Positions 35,509 through 53,314 of a DNA stretch of 64,000 nt are shown piece by piece (position 1 is the stretch's first letter; every line of letters begins with the position of its first letter). Made by a program: the position numbers and the translations under genes. Origin of the DNA: Pseudomonas hydrolytica (GTDB lineage Bacteria; Pseudomonadota; Gammaproteobacteria; Pseudomonadales; Pseudomonadaceae); NCBI RefSeq assembly GCF_021495345.1, contig NZ_CP099397.1:3720001-3784000 (forward strand), in the 5' to 3' direction. The notes below the pieces were generated by a model. That model did no database searches, was not told where the DNA came from, and saw only the letters and a list, made by a program, of their open reading frames with translations.

Positions 35509-36393
35509 ATGACCCAGATCGCCTTTATCGGCCTCGGCCATATGGGCCTGCCCATGGCCCGAAACCTGCTCAAGGCGGGTTATCCGCTGAAAGTCTTCGA
35601 CCTGGTGCGCAGCGCCGTCGACACCCTGGCCGGCGAAGGCGCGGTGGCAGCCGAGAGCGCCGCCGAGGCCAGCGATCAGGCACAGGTGGTGATCAGCATG
35701 CTGCCGGCCAGCCGCCATGTGGAAGGCCTGTACCTGGGCGAAGACGGCCTGCTCGCGCGGCTGCCCGCCGACACGCTGGTGATCGAGTGCTCGACCATCG
35801 CCCCGGAGTCCGCGCGCAAGGTACATGCCGCTGCCCGTGAGCGCGGCGTCGCCCTGCTCGATGCGCCGGTGTCCGGCGGCACGGCTGGCGCTGCCGCCGG
35901 CACCCTGACCTTCATGGTCGGCGGCGAGGCCCAGGCGCTGGAGAAAGCCCGGCCGATCCTCGCCACCATGGGCAGAAACATCTTCCATGCCGGCCCGGAC
36001 GGCGCCGGCCAGGTGGCCAAGGTGTGCAACAACCAGGTGCTCGCCGTGCAGATGATCGCCACTGCCGAAGCCATGGCCATGGGCGTGGCCAATGGCCTGG
36101 AGCCGGCGGTGCTGGCCGAGATCATGCGGCAGAGCTCCGGCGGCAACTGGACACTGGAGAAGTACAACCCCTGGCCCGGGGTGATGGAGAACGTCCCGGC
36201 GTCCAAGGGCTACAGCGGCGGCTTCATGGCCGAGCTGATGGCCAAGGACCTCGGCCTGGCCCAGGAAACCGCCAGCCACAGCGGCAACAGCACGCCCATG
36301 GGCGCTTTGGCGCTGCAGCTGTATCGCCTGCTGCTCAAACAGGGCAAGGGCAAGCAGGATTTCTCGGTGGTGCAGCAGCTGTTCGTGCAATAG
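35509..36393 (+). CDS. mmsB: 3-Hydroxyisobutyrate dehydrogenase
   Basis: A 294-residue NAD-dependent beta-hydroxyacid dehydrogenase. The Rossmann motif GLGHMGLPMARN (about residue 8), substrate-binding DAPVSGGTAGAAAGTL (about residue 119), and the catalytic Lys in GQVAKVCNNQ (about residue 170) are intact. It makes methylmalonate semialdehyde for MmsA. AAGGAGAACC precedes the start. Last gene of the valine cluster; an array of palindromic repeats follows at once. Confidence 0.95.
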   Translation: MTQIAFIGLGHMGLPMARNLLKAGYPLKVFDLVRSAVDTLAGEGAVAAESAAEASDQAQVVISMLPASRHVEGLYLGEDGLLARLPADTLVIECSTIAPESARKVHAAARERGVALLDAPVSGGTAGAAAGTLTFMVGGEAQALEKARPILATMGRNIFHAGPDGAGQVAKVCNNQVLAVQMIATAEAMAMGVANGLEPAVLAEIMRQSSGGNWTLEKYNPWPGVMENVPASKGYSGGFMAELMAKDLGLAQETASHSGNSTPMGALALQLYRLLLKQGKGKQDFSVVQQLFVQ

Positions 36394-36398
36394 CGCCC

Positions 36399-36735
36399 GT
36401 AGGGTGCGCTGCGCGCACCGTAGCGTTTCCCGGTAGAGCTGGTGCGCACGGCGCACCCTACGGAGCCGCCCCCATCGTAGGGTGCGCTGTGCGCACCGGG
36501 GCGTTTCCCGGTAGAGCTGGTGCGCATGGCGCACCCTACGGAAGCCGCGCCCTCCTCGTAGGGTGCGCTGCGCGCACCATGGCGTTTCCCGGTAGAGCTG
36601 GTGCGCATGGCGCACCCTACGGGAGCCGAGCCCCATCGTAGGGTGCGCTGCGCGCACCATGGCGTTTCCCGGTAGAGCTGGTGCGCATGGCGCACCCTAC
36701 GGGGCCGCCCCATCGTAGGGTGCGCTGCGCGCACC
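36399..36735. repeat. Tandem array of four and a half 77-81-bp palindromic repeats
   Basis: Units start at 36399, 36477, 36558 and 36638, with a partial fifth at 36715. Each reads GTAGGGTGCGCTGCGCGCACC, then a near-invariant CGTTTCCCGGTAGAGCT core, then the complementary arm GGTGCGCATGGCGCACCCTAC, then a short GC-rich spacer. Unit lengths are 78, 81, 80 and 77. Each unit can fold into a long hairpin, and single arms are found in at least four other gaps. No coding sense. Confidence 0.93.
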
Positions 36736-36749
36736 AGGACCATCGGAGC

Positions 36750-36995
36750 TCAACGCAGCGTCTGCAAATGCAAAACACCAAACAGCAGCACCTGCAGGCG
36801 CTGCCACCACAACAGCGGCAGGCCCCGCAGGCGCGAGCCGAACAGCACCAGCTCGCCCACATGCGCCAGCAGCACCGCCAGGGCGGCCCAGTTGACCCAG
36901 CCGCCCAGCGGCGCGGCGAAGGGGTAGAAGAGATTGAGCAGCGCCACCAGCCAGAACATGGCCAGGGCGCCCTTGGCGAAAGACAGCAGGTTCAT
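36750..36995 (-). CDS. DUF1145 family small membrane protein
   Basis: An 81-residue protein starting MNLLSFAKGALAMFWLVALLN with two or three hydrophobic segments and HVGELVLFGSRLRGLP between them. This matches the DUF1145 inner-membrane family. GGAGG lies upstream on the minus strand. Function unknown. Confidence 0.75.
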   Translation of the reverse strand: MNLLSFAKGALAMFWLVALLNLFYPFAAPLGGWVNWAALAVLLAHVGELVLFGSRLRGLPLLWWQRLQVLLFGVLHLQTLR

Positions 36996-40899: not shown

Positions 40900-40950
40900 T
40901 GGCAAGGCGCCGCAGCGGGAAGGCGATCAGTGCTGCTAACAGAAATGGCC

Positions 40951-41060
40951 GACTAGGGTTCCGGCCCACCCGCACGGGTGGGTGACTGGTCCGAGAGTGG
41001 GCGACCTCGGAGCGGCGGGAAGCCGCGGGGTTACACGGCGGGATAAAAGCCCGGGAGAAC
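40951..41060 (+). promoter_or_regulatory. Guanidine-I (ykkC) riboswitch 1
   Basis: The conserved ykkC elements occur in order: GACTAGGGTTCCGG, then CTGGTCCGAGAG, then ACACGGCGGGATAAAAGCCC and GGGAGA. The variable stems between are GC-rich (CCCACCCGCACGGGTGGG; GAGCGGCGGGAAGCCGC). This class binds free guanidinium and usually turns on the downstream gene. The next gene, 53 bases away, is a periplasmic binding protein. Confidence 0.95.
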
Positions 41061-41112: not shown

Positions 41113-42174
41113 ATGTCCATTCGCTCCCTGCTCACCGCCCTGCTCTGCGCCTGTCTGCTCGGCGCTCCAACGGCCCAGGCCGCGCCCAAGACCTTCAAGC
41201 TGTGCTGGTCGATCTTCGCCGGCTGGATGCCCTGGGGCTATGCCGCCGAACAGGGCATCGTGAAGAAGTGGGCAGACAAGTACGGCATCGACATTCAGGT
41301 GCAGGAAGTGCCGGATTACGTCGGTTCCATCGAGCGCTACAGCGCCGGCCAGTTCGACGCCTGCACCATGACCAACATGGATGCCCTGACCATTCCCGCC
41401 GCCGCCGGCAAGGACAGCACCGCGCTGATCATCGGCGACTTCTCCAACGGCGCCGACGGCCTGCTGCTGCGCGGCAGCGGCCTGCGAATCCAGGACCTCA
41501 AGGGCAAGAGCGTGCTGCTGGTGGAGAACTCGGTGTCGCATTACCTGCTCAGCCGCGCGCTGGAGTGGGCCCTGCTCGAGGAGAGCGACGTGACCATCAT
41601 CAACGTCTCCGACACCGAAATCGCCGAGGCCTTCCTCGCCGGCAAGGGCGACGCGGTGATCACCTGGAACCCGATCCTCTCCGAGATCCGCCGCAAGGCC
41701 GAGGTCAGCCAGGTGTTCAGCTCCAATCTGATTCCCGGTGAAATCCTCGACCTCACCGTGGTCGACAGCCAGACCCTGGCGCAGCACCCGGAGTTCGGCC
41801 GCGCACTGACCGGCGCCTGGTTCGAGACCCAGCGCCTGCTCGGCCTGCCCACCCCGGCCGGGCGCGAGGCCCGGGCCAGAATGGCGGCCGCTGCCGACAC
41901 CACCGCAGAAGATTTCGAGGCCCAGTTGGGCACCCTGCGCTCGTTCTACTCGCCGCGCACCGCGCTGAACTTCGCGCGCACCGGCAAGCTGCCGGATCTG
42001 ATGCAACGGGTGGCGCGCTTCGCCGATGCCCACGGCCTGCTGGGCAAGAGCGGCTTGGGGCTGACCAATCTGGGGATCGCCTTTAGCGGCGAACGGACTT
42101 TGGGTAACCCACAGCGCATCCTGCTGCGTTTCAATCACGACTACATGCAGTTGGCCGCCGACGGCGCACTCTGA
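41113..42174 (+). CDS. Periplasmic binding protein of the guanidine locus (first paralogue)
   Basis: A 353-residue exported protein with a signal peptide ending near TAQAAPKT. It is of the NMT1/TauA-like solute-binding type: CWSIFAGWMPWGYAAEQGIV, QFDACTMTNMDALTIPAAAG and LIPGEILDLTVV. It closely resembles the second binding protein of this locus. With its riboswitch and the nearby permease and ATPase, it most likely binds guanidine or a guanidino/urea-type compound. It is a single-gene transcription unit. Confidence 0.88.
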   Translation: MSIRSLLTALLCACLLGAPTAQAAPKTFKLCWSIFAGWMPWGYAAEQGIVKKWADKYGIDIQVQEVPDYVGSIERYSAGQFDACTMTNMDALTIPAAAGKDSTALIIGDFSNGADGLLLRGSGLRIQDLKGKSVLLVENSVSHYLLSRALEWALLEESDVTIINVSDTEIAEAFLAGKGDAVITWNPILSEIRRKAEVSQVFSSNLIPGEILDLTVVDSQTLAQHPEFGRALTGAWFETQRLLGLPTPAGREARARMAAAADTTAEDFEAQLGTLRSFYSPRTALNFARTGKLPDLMQRVARFADAHGLLGKSGLGLTNLGIAFSGERTLGNPQRILLRFNHDYMQLAADGAL

Positions 42175-42292: not shown

Positions 42293-42356
42293 AAGAACAG
42301 CCCGTGCAGGAACAACCCGGCTCGCCGGGATCGCGGCACCACAATTTGCCAATAGC

Positions 42357-42450
42357 CGGCTAGGGTTCCGGCTCGCCACCCGCGAGCGACTGGTCCGAGA
42401 GCTGGCGACCTCCAGCGAGGTTACACGGCGGGACAAAAGCCCGGGAGAAC
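42357..42450 (+). promoter_or_regulatory. Guanidine-I (ykkC) riboswitch 2
   Basis: GGCTAGGGTTCCGG, GACTGGTCCGAGAG, ACACGGCGGGACAAAAGCCC and GGGAGA are all present, with a variable stem GCTCGCCACCCGCGAGC. It precedes the ABC permease and ATPase genes, about 185 bases upstream of the permease start. Confidence 0.95.
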
Positions 42451-42634: not shown

Positions 42635-43450
42635 ATGCGCCTGATCAATCGCCACCCGGATCGCAGCGGCCGCCTGCTGCTGATCCTGCTGCCCTTCGCC
42701 CTGCTGCTGTTCGTCTACTTCAGTGCCTCGACCACCCGCCTGGCCGAAAACCCCAACGACAAGCTGCTGCCCAGCGCCAGCCAGATGGTCGATGCCATCG
42801 ACCGCCTGGCCTTCACCGAGGACAAACGCAGCGGCCAGTACCTGTTCTGGCAGGACACCGCCTCCAGCCTGCAACGCCTGGGCATGGGCCTGGGCATCGC
42901 CGCGCTGCTGGGCCTGGTGCTGGGCATCGCCGCCGGCAGCATCCCGCTGTTCGGCGCACCGCTGTCACCGCTGCTCACGGTGCTGTCGATGATTCCGCCA
43001 CTGGCCATCCTGCCGATCCTGTTCATCGTCTTCGGCCTGGGCGAGCTGTCCAAGGTGATGCTGATCGCCATCGGCATCACCCCCTGCATCGCCCGCGATA
43101 TCGAACAGCGCGCCCGCGAGATTCCCGGCGAGCTGCTGATCAAGGCGCAGACCCTCGGCGCCAACACCTGGACGCTGATCCTGCGCCTGGTGCTGCCGCA
43201 GCTGCTGCCGCGCCTGCTGATCTCGCTGCGCCTGATGCTCGGCTCGGCCTGGCTGTTTCTGATCGCCGCCGAGGCCATCGCCTCGACCGACGGCCTCGGC
43301 TATCGCATCTTCCTGGTGCGCCGCTACATGGCCATGGACGTGATCCTGCCCTACGTGGTGTGGATCACCCTGCTGGCCTGGCTGATGGACCTGGGCCTGC
43401 GTCAGGTGCTGCGCCTGTGCTTCCCCTGGCATGAAGGAGGCAAGGCATGA
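42635..43450 (+). CDS. ABC transporter permease of the guanidine locus
   Basis: A 271-residue membrane protein of the SsuC/TauC type with about six hydrophobic segments. The EAA-like loop is EIPGELLIKAQTLGANTWTLILRLVLPQLL (about residues 165-194). Start MRLINRHPDRSGR follows GAGGACTCCCC. Its stop overlaps the ATPase start (ATGA). Controlled by riboswitch 2; predicted to import guanidine or a related compound with the nearby binding proteins. Confidence 0.88.
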   Translation: MRLINRHPDRSGRLLLILLPFALLLFVYFSASTTRLAENPNDKLLPSASQMVDAIDRLAFTEDKRSGQYLFWQDTASSLQRLGMGLGIAALLGLVLGIAAGSIPLFGAPLSPLLTVLSMIPPLAILPILFIVFGLGELSKVMLIAIGITPCIARDIEQRAREIPGELLIKAQTLGANTWTLILRLVLPQLLPRLLISLRLMLGSAWLFLIAAEAIASTDGLGYRIFLVRRYMAMDVILPYVVWITLLAWLMDLGLRQVLRLCFPWHEGGKA

Positions 43451-44316
43451 CCCTGTTCAGCCAACATATCGTCCCGCTGAGGGAACCTGCCATGAGCGAA
43501 TCCAGCGCTACGGCCGCGAGCCCGGCGACAACCGCCTTTATCGAAGCGCGCAACCTGTGGCAGGAGTACGGCGACCAGGTCGTGCTCGAACGCCTCAACC
43601 TCAAGGTGAATGAAGGCGAATTCTGCACCCTGGTCGGCGCCTCCGGCTGTGGCAAGTCCACCTTCCTGCGCATGCTCCTCGGCCAGGAACGCCCGAGCCG
43701 CGGCGAACTGCTGCTGCGTGGTCAGGTGCTGCCCAACGAGCCCGATCCGAGCCGGGGTGTGGTGTTCCAGCGTTACTCGGTATTTCCGCATCTGAGCGTG
43801 CTGGACAACGTCGCCCTCGGTCTGGAGCTGCCGAAGTCGAAGCTGCTGGGCCGGCTGTTCGGTGCCGCCAAGCGCGAGGCCCGCGAGCGCGCTGCGGAAA
43901 TCCTCACCAAGGTCGGCCTCGGCCATGCCCTGAACAGATACCCCAGCGCACTCTCCGGTGGCATGCAGCAACGCCTGGCCATCGCCCAGGCGCTGGTGAT
44001 GCAACCGCGCATGCTGCTGCTCGACGAGCCCTTCGGCGCCCTCGACCCCGGCATCCGCAAGGACATGCACGCACTGCTGCTGGAGCTGTGGCAGGAAACC
44101 CGCCTGACCGTGTTCATGGTCACCCACGACCTGTCCGAAGGCTTCAGCCTCGGCACCCGCCTGCTGGTGTTCGACAAGGTACGCCACGACCCGCAGGCGC
44201 CCGGTGCATACGGGGCGCGGATCACCTATGACATTCCGCTGAACGCGGCGCGCCGGGCGCAGGTGCAACTGCCCAGCGAGCTGGCCGAGCGTATCGCCGC
44301 GCGCAACGAACCGTAG
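43447..44316 (+). CDS. ABC transporter ATPase of the guanidine locus
   Basis: A 289-residue ATPase. Walker A GASGCGKST (about residue 63), Q-loop FQRYSVFPHL, signature LSGGMQQRLAIAQ, Walker B LLLDEPFGALDP and the switch His in THDLSEG are intact. The C-terminal part resembles the SsuB/TauB-like group. Start at 43447 couples to the permease; an internal ATG at 43492 (MSESSATAAS) is a possible alternative because the first 15 residues look non-conserved. Confidence 0.9.
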   Translation: MTLFSQHIVPLREPAMSESSATAASPATTAFIEARNLWQEYGDQVVLERLNLKVNEGEFCTLVGASGCGKSTFLRMLLGQERPSRGELLLRGQVLPNEPDPSRGVVFQRYSVFPHLSVLDNVALGLELPKSKLLGRLFGAAKREARERAAEILTKVGLGHALNRYPSALSGGMQQRLAIAQALVMQPRMLLLDEPFGALDPGIRKDMHALLLELWQETRLTVFMVTHDLSEGFSLGTRLLVFDKVRHDPQAPGAYGARITYDIPLNAARRAQVQLPSELAERIAARNEP

Positions 44317-44453
44317 CCCGGATGAAATCCGGGGATAGCCGGCACCTTTTCCCCGGATTGCATCCGGGCTACGGAGCGGCCAGCCTGGTGCGCACAGCGC
44401 ACCCTACGAAGCGCACACCGCGTTGCAGAACGTAGGGTGCGCCGTGCGCACCA
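44311..44453. repeat. REP palindrome pairs after the ATPase gene
   Basis: GTAGCCCGGATGAAATCCGGGG faces CCCCGGATTGCATCCGGGC, followed by a second pair, GGTGCGCACAGCGCACCCTAC facing GTAGGGTGCGCCGTGCGCACC. The first arm overlaps the ATPase stop codon. This fills the gap between two convergent transcription units and may help to terminate both. Confidence 0.85.
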
Positions 44454-44479
44454 CCTGTGCCTCCGGCAAGGAAGCTCCC

Positions 44480-45412
44480 CTAGCTCAACACCTCGAGATA
44501 GCGCGCCAGCGTTTCCCCCTCCGTGGCAAACCAGCGCTGCGCCTCGTCGGTACAGGGCGTGGCGAGATCGGCGCGCCAGTCCGGCTCCAGCGTATCGATA
44601 AGGAAGGTGCGCACCACCGCACGGCCGTCCGGCCTTTGCAGGTGCTGGCACACGCGCCCGGCCGCCGGGATCTCGTAGCCTTCCAGCGAAACGCGCTGCC
44701 CGACCCGCGCCGGCGGGGTGGACAGCACCACCCGATACCGGCCCGGCTGATCGGCATAGGCCAGCGAGGTTTCGCAGTCGAATAGCGCGGCCAGGGCCTG
44801 TCCATCACCCTGCGCCCGCTCCGCTCGCTCGCGCAGCTGCAGCGCTGACTCACCCGGCTCCACCGCCCGCCCGTGCATCCAGCCAAGCCGGTCGCCGCAG
44901 AGAATCAGGCCACCGCCGCGCTGCAGCACCTGGCCGGTTTCGGCATCGCACTCCTCCAGCAGACGCAGGCTGATCAACGGCCCGCCGCTGGCCTGCAGGC
45001 GCCAGTCCTCGACATAGGCACCACTGGTGCCGAACTCGATCATGCAGTTGCCGATGCGCTGCAACTGCGCCGGCTCCGGCCAGCGGTTGTGCAGTTGCAG
45101 GGACACCCCGCCGCGCCAGCTCAAGTAGCCGTTCTCCCAGATACTGTCAGCCACCCAGCCCTCATGATTGGCAAGCTGGCGCAGCTCGGCGGCATCGTAG
45201 TCCTGCCAGGCCCGCACCGGCAGCGCGGGTGCGTCCGGCAGGCGCAGGTCGATGGTGAAGCTGCGGCTCTGCAGCCAGTGCACCTGGGTGCGCTCATCGC
45301 TGCGGCCATCGGCGAAGCTGATGGTGCGCCGACGAAAGTGCCCGAGCATCCAGTCCGGCACACCGCCCTCGGCGCGCTGCGGGTAACGTGCAGCCAGTTC
45401 CAGCAGGTTCAT
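44480..45412 (-). CDS. Unassigned protein coupled to the 2-oxoglutarate dioxygenase
   Basis: A 310-residue soluble protein that I do not recognise. It starts MNLLELAARYPQRAEGGVPD and has two beta-rich parts: VHWLQSRSFTIDLRLP with SWRGGVSLQLHNRWP and MIEFGTSGAYVEDWRLQ, then a region with GGLILCGDRLGWMHGRAV and CETSLAYADQPGRYRVVLST. No signal peptide or clear catalytic motif. Its ATG overlaps the stop of the dioxygenase gene (ATGA), so it is made together with it under the guanidine-II switch. It may act on the dioxygenase product or bind its substrate; that is only inference. Confidence 0.8.
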   Translation of the reverse strand: MNLLELAARYPQRAEGGVPDWMLGHFRRRTISFADGRSDERTQVHWLQSRSFTIDLRLPDAPALPVRAWQDYDAAELRQLANHEGWVADSIWENGYLSWRGGVSLQLHNRWPEPAQLQRIGNCMIEFGTSGAYVEDWRLQASGGPLISLRLLEECDAETGQVLQRGGGLILCGDRLGWMHGRAVEPGESALQLRERAERAQGDGQALAALFDCETSLAYADQPGRYRVVLSTPPARVGQRVSLEGYEIPAAGRVCQHLQRPDGRAVVRTFLIDTLEPDWRADLATPCTDEAQRWFATEGETLARYLEVLS

Positions 45413-46434
45413 GCCGTCACCTCCCGGCCGCCTTGACCAAAGCTGGACAAACCCGCCGCACCATCCGGCAATTGCAGTGAGCCGTCCTCCAGCCGCTCTC
45501 GCAGATAGCGGAAGGTCTGCGCCGTCTGCGCGAACAGGTGGTCGCCACAGCTCACCGGCGCGTACACCCGCTCACCGCGCGGCGGCAGACCGGGGATCGG
45601 CGCGATGCGCGTCGGGTAGTCGCAGGCGCAGAACAGTGGGAAGGCGAAGCGCTCCTCGCTGACCTTGCGCACGCGGTGCGAGGTGGCGACGAAATGGCCG
45701 TTGCTGAGCACCTCCAGCATGTCGCCGATATTGATCACGAAGGCGTCCTCCACCAGCGGCACGTCGATCCACTGCCCGTCGCCGTTGAGCACCTGCAAAC
45801 CTTCGGCGGTGGGTAGCAGGATGGTGAAGCATTCGTAGTCGGTGTGCGCGCCGATACCGGGACGGTCGGCCACCGGATCGGGGGCGAGCGGGTAATGGAT
45901 CATGCGCAGCTGGCTGGTGGGCTGCCGGGTGATGCCGGCGAAGGTGTCCTCGGCCAGCCCCAGCGCCAGGGCGAAGCCGCGAAACAGCGTGTCGCCCAGC
46001 GCCAGCGCGGCGCGGTAGTAGGCACTGACCTCGCGCTTGAAGTCCGCCGAGTCCGGCCACTGCGTCGGGCCCAGCAGCGGATAGACCTGAGCCGCCTCGG
46101 TGTAGTCGTAATTGACGTCGTAGGCCTCTTTCAGATCCTTGCTGCCGCCGACAAACTGCTCCTCGCCCTCCGGCACGTAGCCGCTGTGGTTGCTCGACTG
46201 GCCGATGTAAAAGCGCATCTTCTCCTCCAGCGGGCGTGCGAAGAAGCGGCGCGCCTGGTCGACCAAACCGTCGCGCAGCTCACGCGCAATGCCGTGCCCG
46301 GTGATCTGCAGAAAGCCGACCTCGCGCGCGGCACGGCCCAGCTCATCGGCTACGAGCCGGCGCTCGGCAGGATGCTCGCTATACAAGCCCGAGACGTCGA
46401 TCAGGGGAATCGAGGTGAAATGGGTATGCGCCAT
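45409..46434 (-). CDS. Fe(II)/2-oxoglutarate-dependent dioxygenase (isopenicillin-N-synthase-like)
   Basis: A 341-residue enzyme. The N-terminal DIOX_N part (IPLIDVSGL, TGHGIARELRDG) is followed by the double-stranded beta-helix. Iron ligands are His197 and Asp199 in GAHTDYECFTIL and His253 in TSHRVRKVS; Arg262 is placed to hold 2-oxoglutarate. This fold includes ethylene-forming enzyme and arginine/homoarginine hydroxylases that release guanidine. The gene has a guanidine-II riboswitch directly upstream, and the next gene is coupled to it. The substrate is not known; a guanidino compound is the obvious candidate. Confidence 0.88.
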   Translation of the reverse strand: MAHTHFTSIPLIDVSGLYSEHPAERRLVADELGRAAREVGFLQITGHGIARELRDGLVDQARRFFARPLEEKMRFYIGQSSNHSGYVPEGEEQFVGGSKDLKEAYDVNYDYTEAAQVYPLLGPTQWPDSADFKREVSAYYRAALALGDTLFRGFALALGLAEDTFAGITRQPTSQLRMIHYPLAPDPVADRPGIGAHTDYECFTILLPTAEGLQVLNGDGQWIDVPLVEDAFVINIGDMLEVLSNGHFVATSHRVRKVSEERFAFPLFCACDYPTRIAPIPGLPPRGERVYAPVSCGDHLFAQTAQTFRYLRERLEDGSLQLPDGAAGLSSFGQGGREVTA

Positions 46435-46500
46435 GGCAATCTCCCTTGAACAAGTGAGTTACCTGGTCGTCCAGACGAGCAGCGGGTCGGGTCGTCCCGA
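46435..46500 (-). promoter_or_regulatory. Guanidine-II (mini-ykkC) riboswitch
   Basis: On the minus strand two short hairpins each carry an ACGA tetraloop: TCGGG-ACGA-CCCGA (46500-46487) and CTGG-ACGA-CCAG (46474-46463), with a 12-base linker. A ribosome-binding site AAGGGAG lies at 46447-46441 and the dioxygenase ATG at 46434. Twin ACGR loops just before a Shine-Dalgarno sequence are the definition of the guanidine-II class, which turns translation on when guanidinium binds. Confidence 0.9.
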
Positions 46501-46708: not shown

Positions 46709-46775
46709 AAAGCTCAGGTGTGCAGGTTACAACCGGGTTTTCCCGGAATCGCGGCACCACAATTTGCGAAATGGA

Positions 46776-46870
46776 TGACTAGGGTTCCGATCCGCGCAGG
46801 CGGGTGACTGGTCCGAGAGTCATCGACCTCCAGTGAGGTTACACGGCGGGATAAAAGCCCGGGAGAACGC
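46776..46870 (+). promoter_or_regulatory. Guanidine-I (ykkC) riboswitch 3
   Basis: GACTAGGGTTCCGA, GACTGGTCCGAGAG, ACACGGCGGGATAAAAGCCC and GGGAGA are present in order, with a short variable stem (TCCGCGCAGGCGGG). It precedes the second binding protein, the DUF1989 pair and the carboxylase, which probably form one operon. Confidence 0.95.
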
Positions 46871-46934: not shown

Positions 46935-48002
46935 ATGCGCAAGTACCGTCTGCTCTCCTTCGCCGCTGCCGGTCTGGCCGCGCTGCTCAGCTTCAGCGCC
47001 CACGCCGAGAAGAAAGACAGCTTCAGTGTCTGCTGGACGCTCTACGCCGGCTGGATGCCCTGGGGCTATGCCAGCACCTCCGGCATCATCGACAAATGGG
47101 CGAAGAAGTACGGCATCGACATCGATGTCGTGCAGCTCAACGACTACGTGGAATCCATCAACCAGTACAGCGTCGGCCAGTTCGACGGCTGCACCATGAC
47201 CAACATGGACGCCCTGACCATTCCCGCCGCCGGCGGCGTGGACAGCACCGCGCTGATCGTCGGCGATTACTCCAACGGCAACGACGGCCTGCTGATCAAG
47301 GGCGAAGGCAAGACCCTGGCCGACCTCAAGGGCATGCAGGTCAACCTGGTGGAGCTGTCGGTATCCCACTACTTCCTCGCCCGCGCGCTGGAAAGCGCCG
47401 GCATGAGCGAGCGCGACGTGAGCGTGGTGAACACCTCCGACGCCGACATCATCGCCGCCTTCTCCACCCCCAGCGTGCAGGCCGCCGCCACCTGGAACCC
47501 GATGCTCGCCGAGATCAAGGCCCAGCCGGGCAGCACCGAGGTGTTCGACTCCTCGAAGATCCCCGGTGAAATCCTCGACATGATGGTGGTCAACACCCAG
47601 ACGCTGAAGGACAACCCGGACTTCGGCAAAGCCCTGGTCGGCGCCTGGTTCGAGATTCTCGACCTGATGCAGTCCGGCACCCCGCAAGCCACCGAAGCGC
47701 TGACCGAAATGGCCAAGGCCTCCGGTACCGACCTGGCCGGATTCCAGGCCCAGCTGGCGACTACCAAGCTGTTCTACACACCCAAGGAAACCCTGGACTT
47801 CGTCACCAGCCCGGCCCTGCCGGAGACCATGACCAAGGTCGCCAACTTCAGCTTCGAGCACGGCATCCTCGGTGAAGGCGCGCGCAGCGCTGACGCCATC
47901 GGCATGACCTTCGCGGGCGACGTGACTACCGGCGACAGCGCCAACATCAAGCTGCGCTTCGACCCGAGCTACATACAGATGGCCGTCGACGGCAAGCTCT
48001 GA
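46935..48002 (+). CDS. Periplasmic binding protein of the guanidine locus (second paralogue)
   Basis: A 355-residue exported protein with a signal peptide ending near SAHAEKKD. It shares long blocks with the first paralogue: CWTLYAGWMPWGYASTSGII, QFDGCTMTNMDALTIPAAGG, KIPGEILDMMVVNTQTLKDN. TGGAGG precedes the start. It is first in the catabolic operon, whereas the permease and ATPase are in a separate unit. Two receptors for one permease suggest two affinities or two ligands. Confidence 0.88.
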   Translation: MRKYRLLSFAAAGLAALLSFSAHAEKKDSFSVCWTLYAGWMPWGYASTSGIIDKWAKKYGIDIDVVQLNDYVESINQYSVGQFDGCTMTNMDALTIPAAGGVDSTALIVGDYSNGNDGLLIKGEGKTLADLKGMQVNLVELSVSHYFLARALESAGMSERDVSVVNTSDADIIAAFSTPSVQAAATWNPMLAEIKAQPGSTEVFDSSKIPGEILDMMVVNTQTLKDNPDFGKALVGAWFEILDLMQSGTPQATEALTEMAKASGTDLAGFQAQLATTKLFYTPKETLDFVTSPALPETMTKVANFSFEHGILGEGARSADAIGMTFAGDVTTGDSANIKLRFDPSYIQMAVDGKL

Positions 48003-48077: not shown

Positions 48078-48806
48078 ATGACAACTGCCCTCACCCTCCG
48101 CCCTACCCTCTATGAGGAAACTGTCCCCGGCGGCGGCCACACGTCCTTCGTGCTCAAGCGCGGCCAGTTGCTGCGCATCACCGATATCGAAGGCGGCGCC
48201 AACGTCAGCCTGCTGCTGTTCAACGCCCTCGAGAAAAGCGAGCGGCTGAACCTGCCCGATACCTTGAAATGCCAGCACACCGCCAAACTCACCGCCGGCC
48301 ACTGCCTGTATTCGGACATGGGCCGCGTGCTGGCCGCCATCACCGCGGATACCTGTGGCTGGCACGACAGCTTCGGTGGAGTGCTATCGGCCTCCGAAGT
48401 GCTGGAGAAATACGGCCAGGGCCGCTATCAGGAACTGCGCAACGGCTTCTTCCGCAACGGCATGGACAACCTGCTGGTGGAAATGGGCAAGTGGGACCTC
48501 AACCTGCAAGACCTGTTGATGAACCTCAACCTGTTCAGCCGCGTGGACGTCGACGCCGATGGCGTATTCCACTTCCAGCCGAACAACTCCAAGGCCGGCG
48601 ACCATATCGAGCTGTATGCGCCGATGGACACGCTGGTGGTGCTCACCGCCCTGCAGCACCCGATGGACCCCAACCCGCAGTACGCGCCCAAGCCGGTGCA
48701 ATTGACCTGGAGCAAGGTCGCCAGCGACGGCATCACCCTGCTCTGCCGCACCTTGCGCCCGGAGAACGGCCGCGGCTTTCACAACACCGAACGTCAGTAT
48801 CTCTGA
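48078..48806 (+). CDS. DUF1989/urea carboxylase-associated protein (carboxyguanidine deiminase subunit)
   Basis: A 242-residue soluble protein. The family pattern is clear: [32 protein letters not shown], then the metal-site region [13 protein letters not shown] and [28 protein letters not shown]. Proteins of this pair were long called urea carboxylase-associated proteins. In Pseudomonas syringae the pair is reported as carboxyguanidine deiminase (CgdAB), which converts carboxyguanidine to allophanate. It lies ten bases before its paralogue. Confidence 0.88.
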
Positions 48807-48816
48807 GGGCGCACAC

Positions 48817-49452
48817 ATGAGCCTGACCGCAAGCAACCTGCATCCCGAGACCGCCAGCTTCCGCCACACCATCCCGGCGGGCGAGCCCTACCTGTTCGAG
48901 GTCAAGGCCGGGCAGACCCTGCGCCTGCATGACCTGGAAGGCAACCAGGCGATCGACACCCTGTTCTTCGCCGCGAAGAACCCGCGCGAACGCTTCGACC
49001 CGCAGCGCACCCTGCGCAAGCAGAACAAGGTTTACCTCACCACCGGCACGGTGCTCTACTCCAACCTCGGCAAACCGCTGCTGACCATAGTCGCCGACAC
49101 CTGCGGCCGCCACGACACCCTCGGCGGCGCCTGCGCGCAGGAGAGCAACACCGTCAGGTATGCACTCGAGAAGCGCTATATGCACAGCTGCCGCGACAAC
49201 TTCCTGCGCGCCAGCCTGCACGACGGCCGTCTGAGCAAGCGCGACCTCGGCGCCAATATCAATTTCTTCATGAACGTGCCGGTAACGCCGGAAGGCGGCC
49301 TGACCTTCGAGGACGGCCTCTCCGCGCCCGGCAAGTACGTGGAGCTCAAGGCCGAGACCGATGTCATCGTGCTGATCTCCAACTGCCCGCAACTGAACAA
49401 CCCCTGCAACGGCTGGAACCCGACCCCGGCCGAAGTGCTGGTGTGGAACTGA
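48817..49452 (+). CDS. DUF1989/urea carboxylase-associated protein (second carboxyguanidine deiminase subunit)
   Basis: A 211-residue paralogue of the preceding protein. The pattern is [34 protein letters not shown], then [19 protein letters not shown] and [29 protein letters not shown]. The Cys/His cluster (TCGRHD, GGAC) probably binds a metal. It presumably forms a complex with its neighbour and hands allophanate to a hydrolase that is not encoded here. Confidence 0.88.
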
Positions 49453-49612
49453 CGCAGGGCGGGTGAAACCCGCCAAGGCCCGGCGGGTTTTCACCGGCCC
49501 TGCAAAATTTGTCCCCAGCACGCGCAACACGCATCACCCGGATTTCCACCACGGACGACCGTGGCACATGACGAATGACGGCGGGACGGCCCGCCACGCC
49601 CTTCGAGGGTCA

Positions 49613-52600
49613 ATGAAGATGTTCGACAAACTCCTGATCGCCAACCGTGGCGCCATTGCCTGCCGCATCCTGCGCACCCTGCGTCAACTGAACGTCAGCG
49701 GCGTAGCCGTGTATGCCGAGGCAGACGCTGCCAGCCTGCATATCCAGCAGGCCGATGAAGCCTTCTGCCTCGGCGACGGCCCCGCCGCGCAGACCTACCT
49801 GGTGGTCGACAAGATTCTCGCCGCGGCCAAGGCCTGCGGCGCGCAGGCCATCCATCCCGGCTACGGCTTTCTCTCCGAGAACGCCGCCTTCGCCGAAGCC
49901 TGCGAAGCCGCCGGCATAGCCTTCGTCGGCCCCACGCCCGAGCAACTGCGCGTATTCGGCCTCAAGCACACCGCCCGCGCCCTGGCCAAGCAACATGGCG
50001 TGCCCATGCTCGAAGGCACCGAATTGCTGGAAAACCTCGACGCCGCGCTCAAGGCCGGCGAACAGGTCGGCTACCCGGTGATGCTGAAAAGCACTGCCGG
50101 CGGTGGCGGCATCGGCATGCGCGTCTGCCGCTCGGCCGCCGAACTCAGCGAAGCCTTCGAGGCGGTCAAGCGCCTGGGGCAGAACAACTTCAGCGACAGC
50201 GGCGTATTTATCGAGAAGTACATCCAGCGCGCCCGCCACCTGGAAGTGCAGGTATTCGGCGACGGCCAGGGCGAGGTGCTCGCCCTCGGCGTGCGCGACT
50301 GCTCGGTACAACGGCGCAACCAGAAGGTGCTGGAAGAAACACCGGCACCGAACCTGCCCGCCGGCATGAATGAGGCGCTGTGCGCGGCGGCGATCAAGCT
50401 GGCCAAGGCGGTGAATTACCGTAGCGCCGGCACCGTCGAATTCGTCTACGACAGCGAGGCCGAGCGCTTCTACTTCCTCGAAGTGAACACCCGTCTGCAG
50501 GTCGAGCACGGCGTCACCGAACAGGTGTGGGGCGTCGACCTGGTGCGCTGGATGATCGAACTGGCGGCCGGCGATCTACCGCCGCTGAGCGAACTGGCCA
50601 AAGGCCTGAAGCCCAACGGCCACGCCATCCAGGCACGCCTGTACGCCGAAGATCCGGGCCGGGATTTTCAGCCCAGCCCCGGCCTGCTGACTGCCGTGAC
50701 CTTCCCGCCCACTGACGGCGAGGCCCTGCGTATCGACACCTGGGTCGAAGCCGGCTGCGAGATTCCGCCCTACTTCGACCCGATGATCGCCAAGCTGATC
50801 ACCTGGGCGCAAAGCCGCGAAGAAGCCTCCCATGCGCTGGATCAGGCCCTGGCAGGCACCCTGCTCTACGGCGTGGAATGCAACCGCGACTACCTGCGCC
50901 AGATCCTTAGCGATGCGCCTTTCGCCAGCGGCCATCCCTGGACCCGCTGCCTGGAAAACCTCGTCTATCAGGCCAGCACCTTCGAAGTGCTCGGCGCCGG
51001 CACCCAAACCAGCGTGCAGGACTATCCCGGCCGCCTCGGCTACTGGGCCGTGGGCGTACCGCCGTCCGGGCCGATGGATGATCGCGCCCTGCGCCTGGGC
51101 AACCGCCTGCTGGGCAACGCAGAGGGCGCCGCCGGCCTGGAAATCACCATGAGCGGCCCGACCCTGCGCTTCAATACGGACGCCGTGGTCGCCGTCACCG
51201 GCGCCGAGATTCCGCTGAGCATCGATGGCTTAGAACAGCCGATGAACACCGCCCTGCTGATCGAGGCCGGCAGCACCCTGACGCTCGGCACCATCGCAGG
51301 CAGCGGCGCGCGCAGCTACCTGAGCGTTCGCGGCGGCATTCAGGTGCCGGATTACCTGGGCAGCAAGAGCACCTTTACCCTCGGCCAGTTCGGCGGCCAT
51401 GGCGGCCGTGCACTGCGCGCCGGCGACGTGCTGCACCTGCTGCCGCTGGCCGATACCGGCAGCGGCGCGCAACTGCCCGCCGAACTCTGCCCATCCCTGC
51501 CGGCCGTACGCGAACTGCGCGTGATCTACGGCCCGCACGGCACGCCGGAATACTTCACACCCGCCTATGTCGACAGCTTCCTCGCCACCGAGTGGGAAGT
51601 GCACTTCAACTCCAGCCGCACCGGCGTGCGCCTGATCGGGCCGAAACCGGAATGGGTGCGCGACAGCGGCGGCGAAGCCGGCCTGCACCCGTCCAATATT
51701 CACGACAACCCCTACGCCATCGGCGCGGTAGATTTTACCGGCGACATGCCGGTGATCCTCGGCCCGGACGGCCCCAGCCTGGGCGGCTTCGTCTGCCTGG
51801 TGACTATCATCGAGGCCGACCTGTGGCAGCTCGGCCAGCTCAAGGCCGGCGACAAGGTACGCTTCGTGCCGGTGGATATCGCCACGGCACGGGAGTTGGC
51901 CAAAGCCAGTGCCAGCGAATGCACCAGCCTTTGTGGGAGCGGCTTCAGCCGCGATGCAGGCAACACCGAAATCGCGGATAAATCCGCTCCTACAGACGCG
52001 ACCGTAGCCCGGATGCAATCCGGGGAAAACGCAGCGCCTGAATCCCGGATTGCATCCGGGCTACAAAGCCCCATCGTCCTCGACATCGGCCAGGCCGACA
52101 CCCGCCTGGTCGCACGCCTGTCCGGCGACACCCACCTGCTGCTGGAAATTGGCCAGCCGGAACTGGACCTGGTGCTGCGCTTCCGTGGCCACGCGCTGAT
52201 GCAGGCGCTGGAGGCCAAGCGGCTCGCCGGCGTGATCGACCTCACCCCCGGCATTCGCTCGCTGCAGGTGCACTACCAGCCGGAAACCCTGCCGCTGCAG
52301 CGCCTGCTCGACCTAGTCGCCGGCGAGTGGGACGCGGTATGCGCCGCCAAGGATCTGAAGGTGCCGTCGCGCATCGTCCACCTGCCGCTGTCCTGGGACG
52401 ACCCGGCCTGCCAGCTGGCCATCGAGAAATACATGACCACCGTGCGCAAGGACGCCCCCTGGTGCCCGAGCAACCTGGAGTTCATCCGCCGCATCAACGA
52501 CCTGCCGAACCTCGACGAGGTGTACCGCACCGTGTTCGACGCCAGCTACCTGGTGATGGGCCTGGGCGACGTCTATCTCGGCGCGCCGGTGGCCACGCCG

Positions 52601-53314
52601 CTGGACCCGCGCCATCGCCTGGTCACCACCAAGTACAACCCGGCGCGCACCTGGACGGCGGAGAACTCCGTCGGCATCGGCGGCGCCTATATGTGCGTGT
52701 ACGGCATGGAAGGCCCCGGCGGCTATCAGTTCGTCGGCCGTACCCTGCAGATGTGGAACCGCTACCGCGAGGTCGAGGCCTTCGACGGCAAGCCCTGGCT
52801 GCTGCGCTTCTTCGACCAGATCCGCTTCTACCCGGTGAGTGCCGACGAACTGCTGCGCATCCGCCGCGACTTCCCACTGGGCCGCTACCCGCTGCGCATC
52901 GAGCACAGCGAACTGGCCCTGGCCGACTACCAGCAGTTTCTCGATGAAGAAGCAGAGGGCATCGCCGCCTTCCGCCAGCAGCAGCGCGCGGCTTTCGATG
53001 CCGAGCGCCAGCGATGGATCGAATCGGGTCAGGCGCATTTCGAAGTCGAGGAAGTGGCCGCCGAGCTTGGCGATGATGCGCCGCTGGGGGCCGGTCAGCA
53101 CGGCATCGACAGCCATATCGCCGGCAACCTCTGGCAGGTGCAGGTGGAAGCCGGCGCACAGGTGCAGGCCGGCGACGTGCTGGTGATTCTCGAATCGATG
53201 AAGATGGAGATTCCGCTGACCGCACCGGTGGCCGGCACCGTGCGCGAGGTGCGTGTGCAGCCCGGCTCGCCGGTACGCGCCGGGCAGCGCGTGGTGGTGC
53301 TGGAAGAGGCCTGA
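49613..53314 (+). CDS. Urea/guanidine carboxylase, biotin-dependent
   Basis: A 1233-residue multidomain enzyme. Biotin carboxylase covers about residues 1-450 (KLLIANRGAIACRI; KSTAGGGGIGM; EVNTRLQVEHGVTE). The carboxyltransferase is built from KipA- and KipI-like halves (VQDYPGRLGYWAVGVPPSGPMDD; YGMEGPGGYQFVGR). A C-terminal biotinyl domain has ESMKMEIPLTAP. The riboswitch and deiminase pair favour guanidine as substrate; a reported Asp/Asn difference in the carboxyltransferase domain should decide, but I cannot place it with certainty. The gene contains an in-frame REP insertion. ATG at 49619 is an alternative start. Confidence 0.92.
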   Translation: MKMFDKLLIANRGAIACRILRTLRQLNVSGVAVYAEADAASLHIQQADEAFCLGDGPAAQTYLVVDKILAAAKACGAQAIHPGYGFLSENAAFAEACEAAGIAFVGPTPEQLRVFGLKHTARALAKQHGVPMLEGTELLENLDAALKAGEQVGYPVMLKSTAGGGGIGMRVCRSAAELSEAFEAVKRLGQNNFSDSGVFIEKYIQRARHLEVQVFGDGQGEVLALGVRDCSVQRRNQKVLEETPAPNLPAGMNEALCAAAIKLAKAVNYRSAGTVEFVYDSEAERFYFLEVNTRLQVEHGVTEQVWGVDLVRWMIELAAGDLPPLSELAKGLKPNGHAIQARLYAEDPGRDFQPSPGLLTAVTFPPTDGEALRIDTWVEAGCEIPPYFDPMIAKLITWAQSREEASHALDQALAGTLLYGVECNRDYLRQILSDAPFASGHPWTRCLENLVYQASTFEVLGAGTQTSVQDYPGRLGYWAVGVPPSGPMDDRALRLGNRLLGNAEGAAGLEITMSGPTLRFNTDAVVAVTGAEIPLSIDGLEQPMNTALLIEAGSTLTLGTIAGSGARSYLSVRGGIQVPDYLGSKSTFTLGQFGGHGGRALRAGDVLHLLPLADTGSGAQLPAELCPSLPAVRELRVIYGPHGTPEYFTPAYVDSFLATEWEVHFNSSRTGVRLIGPKPEWVRDSGGEAGLHPSNIHDNPYAIGAVDFTGDMPVILGPDGPSLGGFVCLVTIIEADLWQLGQLKAGDKVRFVPVDIATARELAKASASECTSLCGSGFSRDAGNTEIADKSAPTDATVARMQSGENAAPESRIASGLQSPIVLDIGQADTRLVARLSGDTHLLLEIGQPELDLVLRFRGHALMQALEAKRLAGVIDLTPGIRSLQVHYQPETLPLQRLLDLVAGEWDAVCAAKDLKVPSRIVHLPLSWDDPACQLAIEKYMTTVRKDAPWCPSNLEFIRRINDLPNLDEVYRTVFDASYLVMGLGDVYLGAPVATPLDPRHRLVTTKYNPARTWTAENSVGIGGAYMCVYGMEGPGGYQFVGRTLQMWNRYREVEAFDGKPWLLRFFDQIRFYPVSADELLRIRRDFPLGRYPLRIEHSELALADYQQFLDEEAEGIAAFRQQQRAAFDAERQRWIESGQAHFEVEEVAAELGDDAPLGAGQHGIDSHIAGNLWQVQVEAGAQVQAGDVLVILESMKMEIPLTAPVAGTVREVRVQPGSPVRAGQRVVVLEEA
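51933..52064. repeat. Composite REP insertion inside the carboxylase gene
   Basis: Two REP families lie end to end within the coding sequence. The first is GTGGGAGCGGCTTCAGCCGC with ATCGCGGATAAATCCGCTCC (51933-51993); the second is GTAGCCCGGATGCAATCCGGGG facing CCCGGATTGCATCCGGGC (52004-52064). Total length is 132 bp, 44 codons, with no stop in frame. It encodes a stretch such as CGSGFSRDAGNTEIADKSAP in the linker between the two carboxyltransferase halves (about residues 774-817). Confidence 0.9.

Follow-up and report, generated by a model that had tools for sequence, protein, structure and literature searches.

A probable methylguanidine demethylation operon, mgdH-mgdL, with its own Guanidine-II-class riboswitch in Pseudomonas hydrolytica

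Enzymatic release of guanidine from methylguanidine has been described in Vreelandella boliviensis (Sinn et al., Nat Commun, October 2025; PMC12508155), where the dioxygenase MgdH hydroxylates methylguanidine and MgdL, a hypothetical protein with Asp49 and Arg51, splits the hydroxylated compound, releasing guanidine and formaldehyde. Both genes are flanked by gca and atzF inside a single long operon, and the Guanidine-II riboswitch of that operon, located before gca, binds guanidine and methylguanidine with dissociation constants (KD) of 93 and 83 uM, respectively, while Guanidine-I binds guanidine only (PMC12508155); as a class, Guanidine-II RNAs bind methylguanidine and guanidine with affinities that differ by no more than fourfold (PMC5486947). 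Here, we describe a locus in a 64,000-nt stretch of the 5.29 Mb, single-contig chromosome of Pseudomonas hydrolytica (NZ_CP099397.1, positions 3,720,001 to 3,784,000; hereafter, the window), where mgdH and mgdL very probably form an operon for the demethylation of methylguanidine, controlled by a Guanidine-II-class riboswitch of its own that would act as a translational ON switch. The locus resembles that of V. boliviensis in its pair of dioxygenase and putative lyase, its Asp-x-Arg motif, its carboxylase pathway and ATP-binding cassette (ABC) importer, and the presence of both Guanidine-I and Guanidine-II aptamers; it differs in that mgdHL stands apart as a divergent operon equipped with a Guanidine-II of its own, on the strand opposite to the importer, deiminase, and carboxylase genes. 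The features of this operon are as follows (window positions).

44480..45412, minus strand: mgdL-like gene, 310 aa, probable N-(hydroxymethyl)guanidine lyase (sequence and profile comparison, structure model, PMC12508155)
45409..46434, minus strand: mgdH-like Fe(II)/2-oxoglutarate dioxygenase gene, 341 aa, probable methylguanidine hydroxylase (domains, residues, PMC12508155)
46431..46466, minus strand: predicted OFF-state helix of the P2 3' arm and following bases with the Shine-Dalgarno/start region (folding, compensatory changes)
46441..46447, minus strand: Shine-Dalgarno AAGGGAG of mgdH, with AUG at 46434 (sequence)
46462..46475, minus strand: Guanidine-II hairpin P2 (UCUGG-ACGA-CCAGG), UCUGGACGACCAGG (sequence, conservation, model R2, see below)
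46487..46500, minus strand: Guanidine-II hairpin P1 (UCGGG-ACGA-CCCGA), UCGGGACGACCCGA (sequence, conservation, model R2)

The mgdH stop and mgdL start share an ATGA, a four-base overlap. Ahead of mgdH, an earlier reading of the DNA made without database searches (the sequence-only reading) had pointed to two minus-strand hairpins with ACGA loops preceding the Shine-Dalgarno site, and both are indeed present, at 46500-46487 and 46475-46462, ending 27 nt ahead of the start codon and followed by AAGGGAG at 46447-46441. Their spacing, given there as 12 bases, measures 11 nt as paired or 13 nt between the 12-nt cores, within the 7-40 nt described for Guanidine-II linkers (PMC7544219); certain relatives exceed 40 nt, reaching 79 nt. 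Like Guanidine-II (mini-ykkC, RF01068), the window element consists of two ACGR-tetraloop hairpins with G+C-rich stems and G-C closing pairs, placed before a Shine-Dalgarno site.

The covariance-model check proposed in that reading gave a divided answer. At its gathering score of 32, which is a detection threshold and not a defining trait of the class, the Rfam Guanidine-II model (RF01068) does not call the window hairpins, scoring them at 16.7 bits in the wrong register and 18.9 bits in the right one. Nor does it call the mgdH-upstream site in any of the 23 relatives scanned (23 of the 66 other than the window); in 7 of these same 23 loci, it does call another Guanidine-II, before gca. Because Rfam alone rejects the window hairpins, models were built from relatives. 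Model R1 gives the window site 54.4 bits, a score that is circular because R1 includes the window; model R2, built from 26 relatives with the window's own group as well as L033, L066, and L070 excluded, and counted as the decisive test, matches it with 37.4 bits (E 3.2e-6), the runner-up place scoring 14.9 bits.

Conservation was evaluated over 99 loci, comprising the window (its copy L001 excluded), 80 named-genome loci (the best 80 of 226 confirmed), 9 genus-sample loci, and 9 further regions, with L110 left out for its distant dioxygenase. A pair was defined as two ACGR hairpins no more than 300 nt upstream of the dioxygenase gene, a rule loosened to admit hairpins with two G-U pairs, since the stricter form missed the window's own site. 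By this definition, a pair is present in 64 of the 76 loci where an mgdL-like gene adjoins the dioxygenase gene and in 3 of the 23 where none does, and loci with the pair before mgdH span gamma- and betaproteobacteria. Many of the 64 are closely related and two genomes are counted twice (L037/L114 and L048/L112); altogether, the 67 pair sites represent 50 distinct sequences. The three pair-bearing loci without adjacent mgdL all group within the mgdH clade of the tree: L033, whose contig ends just past mgdH, and L069 and L073 from Halieaceae, where mgdL was not detected. Of the other 20 loci, with neither mgdL nor pair, 17 make up a separate sister clade. Among the 12 pairless loci that do have mgdL, L025 yet scores 31.3 bits with R1, and L067, L068, L071, L072, L076, L077, and L078 (Hyphomicrobium and Phenylobacterium metagenome-assembled genomes, MAGs) have another gene arrangement, with L067 and L068 inside the main operon; L042, L047, L062, and L084 are the remainder. 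An R1 scan of 37 loci, mostly pairless by the rule, returned L107, L106, L025, and L108 at E <=0.0012, only L025 being new.

Could the hairpins be a chance or unrelated inverted repeat and no riboswitch at all, as the missing Rfam call at its cut-off might suggest? Pairs appeared in 0 of 5000 base-shuffled upstream stretches, and in 202 of 20000 random 300-nt stretches from the same loci, the latter being an upper bound because true sites were left unmasked. In an alignment of 33 of the 67 sites (32 distinct; near-copies and the longest linkers excluded), 93.0% of P1/P2 cells are paired, both-side changes occur in 26 cells versus 9.3 (sd 3.1) in shuffles, and the covariation score is 0.236 versus 0.121, with none of 500 shuffles reaching any of the three values. 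The retention of position and ACGR loops across loci with mgdL, the compensatory changes, and the R2 match thus make a chance repeat extremely improbable. On sequence grounds, the hairpin pair is confirmed as a Guanidine-II type switch, with guanidinium binding predicted.

How this switch would act on mgdH was approached by folding. In the whole-leader fold of the window, the P2 3' arm and following bases pair with the Shine-Dalgarno/start region, and the mean probability of the P2 3' arm pairing downstream is 0.63 across 62 loci (5 further loci were excluded from the folding set, having no Shine-Dalgarno by the rule used). With the P2 5' arm left out, such a masking helix was seen by eye in most of 32 sequences; in the 24 of these that were aligned, both-side changes number 15 cells versus 5.0 in shuffles, and 80.3% of cells are paired versus 73.1, each with 0 of 500 shuffles as high. 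Pairing breaks down at the three outermost positions in 7 to 10 of the 24 sequences. Other outcomes speak against masking: the count of double-change pairs was matched by 26 of 500 shuffles and that of pair types by 83 of 500, and enforcing P1 and P2, a weak test, opened the Shine-Dalgarno in 29 of the 62 loci, closed it in 11, and hardly changed it in 22. Because the folding and covariation results are mixed, we consider a translational ON switch likely, with moderate support. In the ligand-free state, judging from folding and compensatory changes, the P2 3' arm and the bases behind it would pair with the Shine-Dalgarno/start region; guanidine or methylguanidine at the ACGA loops would, as known for the class, lead P1 and P2 to form and dock, freeing the ribosome site.

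For comparison with the published system, 275 genomes of one family were searched with the MgdL alignment; relatives turned up in 26 of them, from which 18 regions were taken. Thirteen of the 18 have the published order of permease, ATPase, two deiminase subunits, Guanidine-II pair, gca, and mgdH, led by the binding protein in 12 (L148 begins at the permease) and with mgdH ~1.9 kb behind gca in L148 and L151. Here the pair stands before gca in 13 of 13 and before mgdH in 0 of 13. The gene after mgdH, examined in 12 of these regions (L146 excluded), overlaps mgdH in 11 and has Asp-x-Arg at residue 49 in 10 and at residue 64 in one, while in the twelfth region it is a short frame; a 604-716 aa gene downstream, taken by eye as allophanate hydrolase, is found in 10 of the 12. 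From gene order and residue numbering, we infer that these genomes are Halomonadaceae of the Vreelandella type.

The dioxygenase frame is intact, with 341 aa matching DIOX_N (E 5.7e-28) and 2OG-FeII_Oxy (E 1.9e-21). Residues H197, D199, H253, and R262, which we take to be the His-x-Asp, His, and Arg of the Fe(II)/2-oxoglutarate site, are the same in all 19 aligned sequences, window included, so that the intact His-Asp-His and Arg noticed earlier hold up. The closest named relatives, from P. guguanensis and Pseudomonas sp. P818, are each 98% identical. Evolutionarily, a 55-row tree separates window, Vreelandella-type, alphaproteobacterial, and mgdL-less sister clades, each well supported. The window protein is 56% identical to a Vreelandella-type MgdH and 52-55% to the mgdL-less sister clade, and plain similarity was rejected as proof of substrate, that clade being almost as close. 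The gene stands beside mgdL and guanidine genes, and many homologues are linked with guanidine genes as well, whereas the sequence-only reading would have been given up had they never been.

That reading had also entertained arginine or an agmatine-like compound as substrate. Such an enzyme would free guanidine from arginine, homoarginine, or agmatine in the manner of ethylene-forming enzyme and plant 2-ODD-C23, which share the fold and the Fe/2-oxoglutarate chemistry and both yield guanidine; in keeping with this, the top Protein Data Bank (PDB) match is 9ovh, whose chain is named ethylene/succinate-forming enzyme (E 6e-50), and agmatine can sit in Guanidine-II crystals (PMC5486947). However, those enzymes act on arginine or homoarginine, and their hydroxylated products decay spontaneously, without a lyase (PMC12508155), yet a lyase-like gene is kept here. 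We therefore find the proposal unsupported and very unlikely. Gene order and conserved residues point instead to methylguanidine, not arginine, as probably the substrate, because the two genes match MgdH and MgdL of V. boliviensis. What survives of the earlier interpretation is the Guanidine-II switch and a probable alkylguanidine hydroxylation that feeds the neighboring carboxylase; the MgdL partner and the published pair had been overlooked.

The 310-aa partner (44480-45412) has no Pfam or NCBIfam match at E 0.001. All 18 aligned sequences, several of them just 23-28% identical to it, keep its D55-x-R57, which aligns with residues 49 and 51 of Vreelandella-type MgdL, the catalytic Asp and Arg. 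E126, E135, and W137 are likewise invariant in 18 of 18; for the guanidine group in MgdL, a conserved Glu, Asp, and Trp are described, without residue numbers in the text (PMC12508155). Profile-profile comparison joins the two MgdL groups with 99.1% probability and Asp-x-Arg in register. The structure model (predicted local distance difference test score, pLDDT, 93.8) is a beta-barrel, with lipocalin-like matches mostly over residues 16-178; the top three Foldseek matches, with template modelling scores (TM-scores) <=0.25, were not considered further. The yeast protein YLR301w (HRI1), annotated as uncharacterized, matches the model with 14% identity; it was not among the best 50 Foldseek matches and surfaced only in the VIA structure comparison, and no sequence alignment of MgdL relatives to HRI1 in the PDB was obtained. 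A plasmid search for mgdL gave three records at 33-37% identity.

Several observations weigh against a straightforward transfer of the V. boliviensis function. The window MgdL shares just 26% identity with a Vreelandella-type MgdL, and the V. boliviensis proteins proper are UniProt A0A265DXP8 and A0A265DXW6, the sequences compared here being stand-ins from genomes with the same operon order. The 55-row tree gives no supported branching order for the four MgdH clades. In Halieaceae L069 and L073, a Guanidine-II pair and mgdH occur, followed by a binding protein, and no mgdL was detected. Finally, cgdB was present in 23 of 23 mgdHL genomes checked whose locus had no gca (drawn from 35 loci that have mgdL and lack a full gca, the 12 left out being mostly MAGs), but the mgdL-less sister clade likewise has it in 12 of 17 genomes; we therefore rejected this co-occurrence as proof.

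The low MgdL identity also means that specificity could have shifted, such that the dioxygenase would act chiefly on another alkylguanidine, N,N-dimethylguanidine or longer, with the MgdL-like protein cleaving that hemiaminal; V. boliviensis MgdH does take N,N-dimethylguanidine (PMC12508155). However, V. boliviensis MgdL is inactive on hydroxylated dimethylguanidine, and the Guanidine-II of that species, of the same class as the window RNA, does not respond to dimethylguanidine (PMC12508155), leaving this a minor alternative that we regard as unlikely. From the conserved residues and gene context, the pair most likely makes guanidine from methylguanidine as a nitrogen source.

Related pairs and clades show other contexts. 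In Enterobacter (L089:6035-9884), the neighbors of an mgdL-less sister dioxygenase include a ureohydrolase resembling agmatinase and an ABC binding protein of lysine/arginine/ornithine type, so the dioxygenase may act on another guanidino compound. In L110, L136, L138, L140, L143, and L144, a second dioxygenase (35-38% identical to window MgdH) stands before an MgdL-like protein, which an ABC ATPase follows; neither a Guanidine-II pair nor the guanidine genes looked for were found in the stretch, which possibly encodes another two-step demethylase. In the actinobacterium Nocardia (L084:7270-9023), an MgdL-like protein with Asp-x-Arg directly precedes the dioxygenase, and guanidine carboxylase genes were not found in the stretch.

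The surrounding genes belong to the guanidine carboxylase pathway (gca, cgdA/B, atzF). The same genes and switches lie next door. In the window they are split into several units, which together have two binding proteins as well as three Guanidine-I and two Guanidine-II aptamers; allophanate hydrolase is encoded elsewhere in the same genome, outside the locus. Interspersed with the aptamers are genes for two TIGR03427 binding proteins, an ABC permease, an ATPase, both deiminase subunits, and the carboxylase.

40942..41059, plus strand: Guanidine-I aptamer before binding protein 1 (Rfam 84.6 bits)
41113..42174, plus strand: ABC substrate-binding protein 1 (TIGR03427, 433.3 bits)
42349..42449, plus strand: Guanidine-I aptamer before the permease (Rfam 96.4 bits)
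42635..43450, plus strand: ABC permease (PF00528)
43447..44316, plus strand: ABC ATPase (PF00005)
46768..46867, plus strand: Guanidine-I aptamer before the second binding protein (Rfam 94.0 bits)
46935..48002, plus strand: ABC substrate-binding protein 2 (TIGR03427, 565.7 bits)
48078..48806, plus strand: carboxyguanidine deiminase subunit (UAAP1, TIGR03425, 330.2 bits)
48817..49452, plus strand: carboxyguanidine deiminase subunit (UAAP2, TIGR03424, 322.1 bits)
49547..49594, plus strand: ordinary-type Guanidine-II riboswitch before gca (Rfam 44.8 bits)
49610..53314, plus strand: guanidine (annotated urea) carboxylase gca (TIGR02712, 1869.8 bits; function from PMC12508155 and PMC12186494)

With the mgdH switch included, five guanidine aptamers fall within 9 kb. 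Rfam calls four in the window, three Guanidine-I and one Guanidine-II, all on the plus strand, and a whole-genome scan gave no further Guanidine-I or Guanidine-II matches above the family cut-offs. A promoter and terminator scan gave no signal exceeding shuffles.

Transferring the V. boliviensis chemistry, MgdH would put a hydroxyl on the methyl of methylguanidine using O2 and 2-oxoglutarate, and MgdL would split the resulting N-(hydroxymethyl)guanidine into guanidine and formaldehyde. The guanidine would then induce the importer and deiminase genes, which are under Guanidine-I control, and would itself be degraded to ammonium by the carboxylase pathway. Since Guanidine-II takes methylguanidine as well as guanidine and Guanidine-I takes guanidine alone, the mgdHL switch could sense both substrate and product and the Guanidine-I aptamers the product only; the locus would turn on in two steps, through Guanidine-II on mgdHL and then through Guanidine-I on import and degradation.

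The mgdH-linked switches also differ from the other Guanidine-II pairs of these loci. Over all loci, 51 distinct pairs have a P2 core of CUGG, with a P1 core mostly CGGG, where the others tend to CGGG in P2; of the 38 other distinct pairs, 35 have the P2 core CGGGACGRCCCG. This grouping is a description and not a test, because the split was made on CUGG. Relative to RF01068, which overlooks them, the mgdH switches have linkers of 13-79 nt between cores, and within the longer linkers a separate hairpin is predicted: for linkers >=17 nt, one of -3 kcal/mol or better is predicted in 44 of 44 distinct cases, modest evidence alone because shuffles would give 32.6, and for the window's 13-nt linker none is predicted. 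The distance from P2 to the start codon (median 30, range 21-49) is steadier than the linker (median 23, range 13-79). We tentatively suggest, while considering it rather doubtful, that the mgdH-linked switches are a separate subtype that would sense methylguanidine, the substrate, in the cell, with same-locus Guanidine-I sensing guanidine, the product. If so, the RNA logic of the locus would have two steps and include a natural sensor for an alkylguanidine, and the standard RNA library would be missing a Guanidine-II subtype.

With respect to PMC12508155, the enzyme chemistry is already known, and what is new is control by a dedicated Guanidine-II of a distinct subtype on a separate operon. 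We found no mention of a separate mgdHL operon with its own switch in the main text of PMC12508155 or in related titles and abstracts, a survey that covers the literature on guanidine-riboswitch contexts incompletely; in PMC12508155, as available to us, 'Pseudomonas' occurs only within reference titles. The methylguanidine pathway likely extends past Vreelandella and Salinisphaera, the halophile genera named in PMC12508155, to taxa such as Pseudomonas, Gilvimarinus, Halieaceae, and Variovorax, some of which may already be among the 216 MgdL homologues of that study. The locus offers a clean test of whether Guanidine-II naturally senses methylguanidine. Ecologically, because methylguanidine can arise non-enzymatically from creatinine (PMC12508155), the trait may matter for obtaining nitrogen from animal waste.

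Two further observations concern repeats in the window. Within gca (~51880-52100), between the two carboxyltransferase domains, lies an in-frame stretch whose length and sequence vary among the 7 relatives with a pattern match (12 tried); it contains the peptide GSGFSRDA, which we take to be typical of translated repetitive extragenic palindromic (REP) elements. At 36200-36750 and 44300-44650, intergenic GTGCGCA-like repeats produce, by eye, long spurious reading frames, the repeat core having 13 and 8 matches on the two strands of the window.

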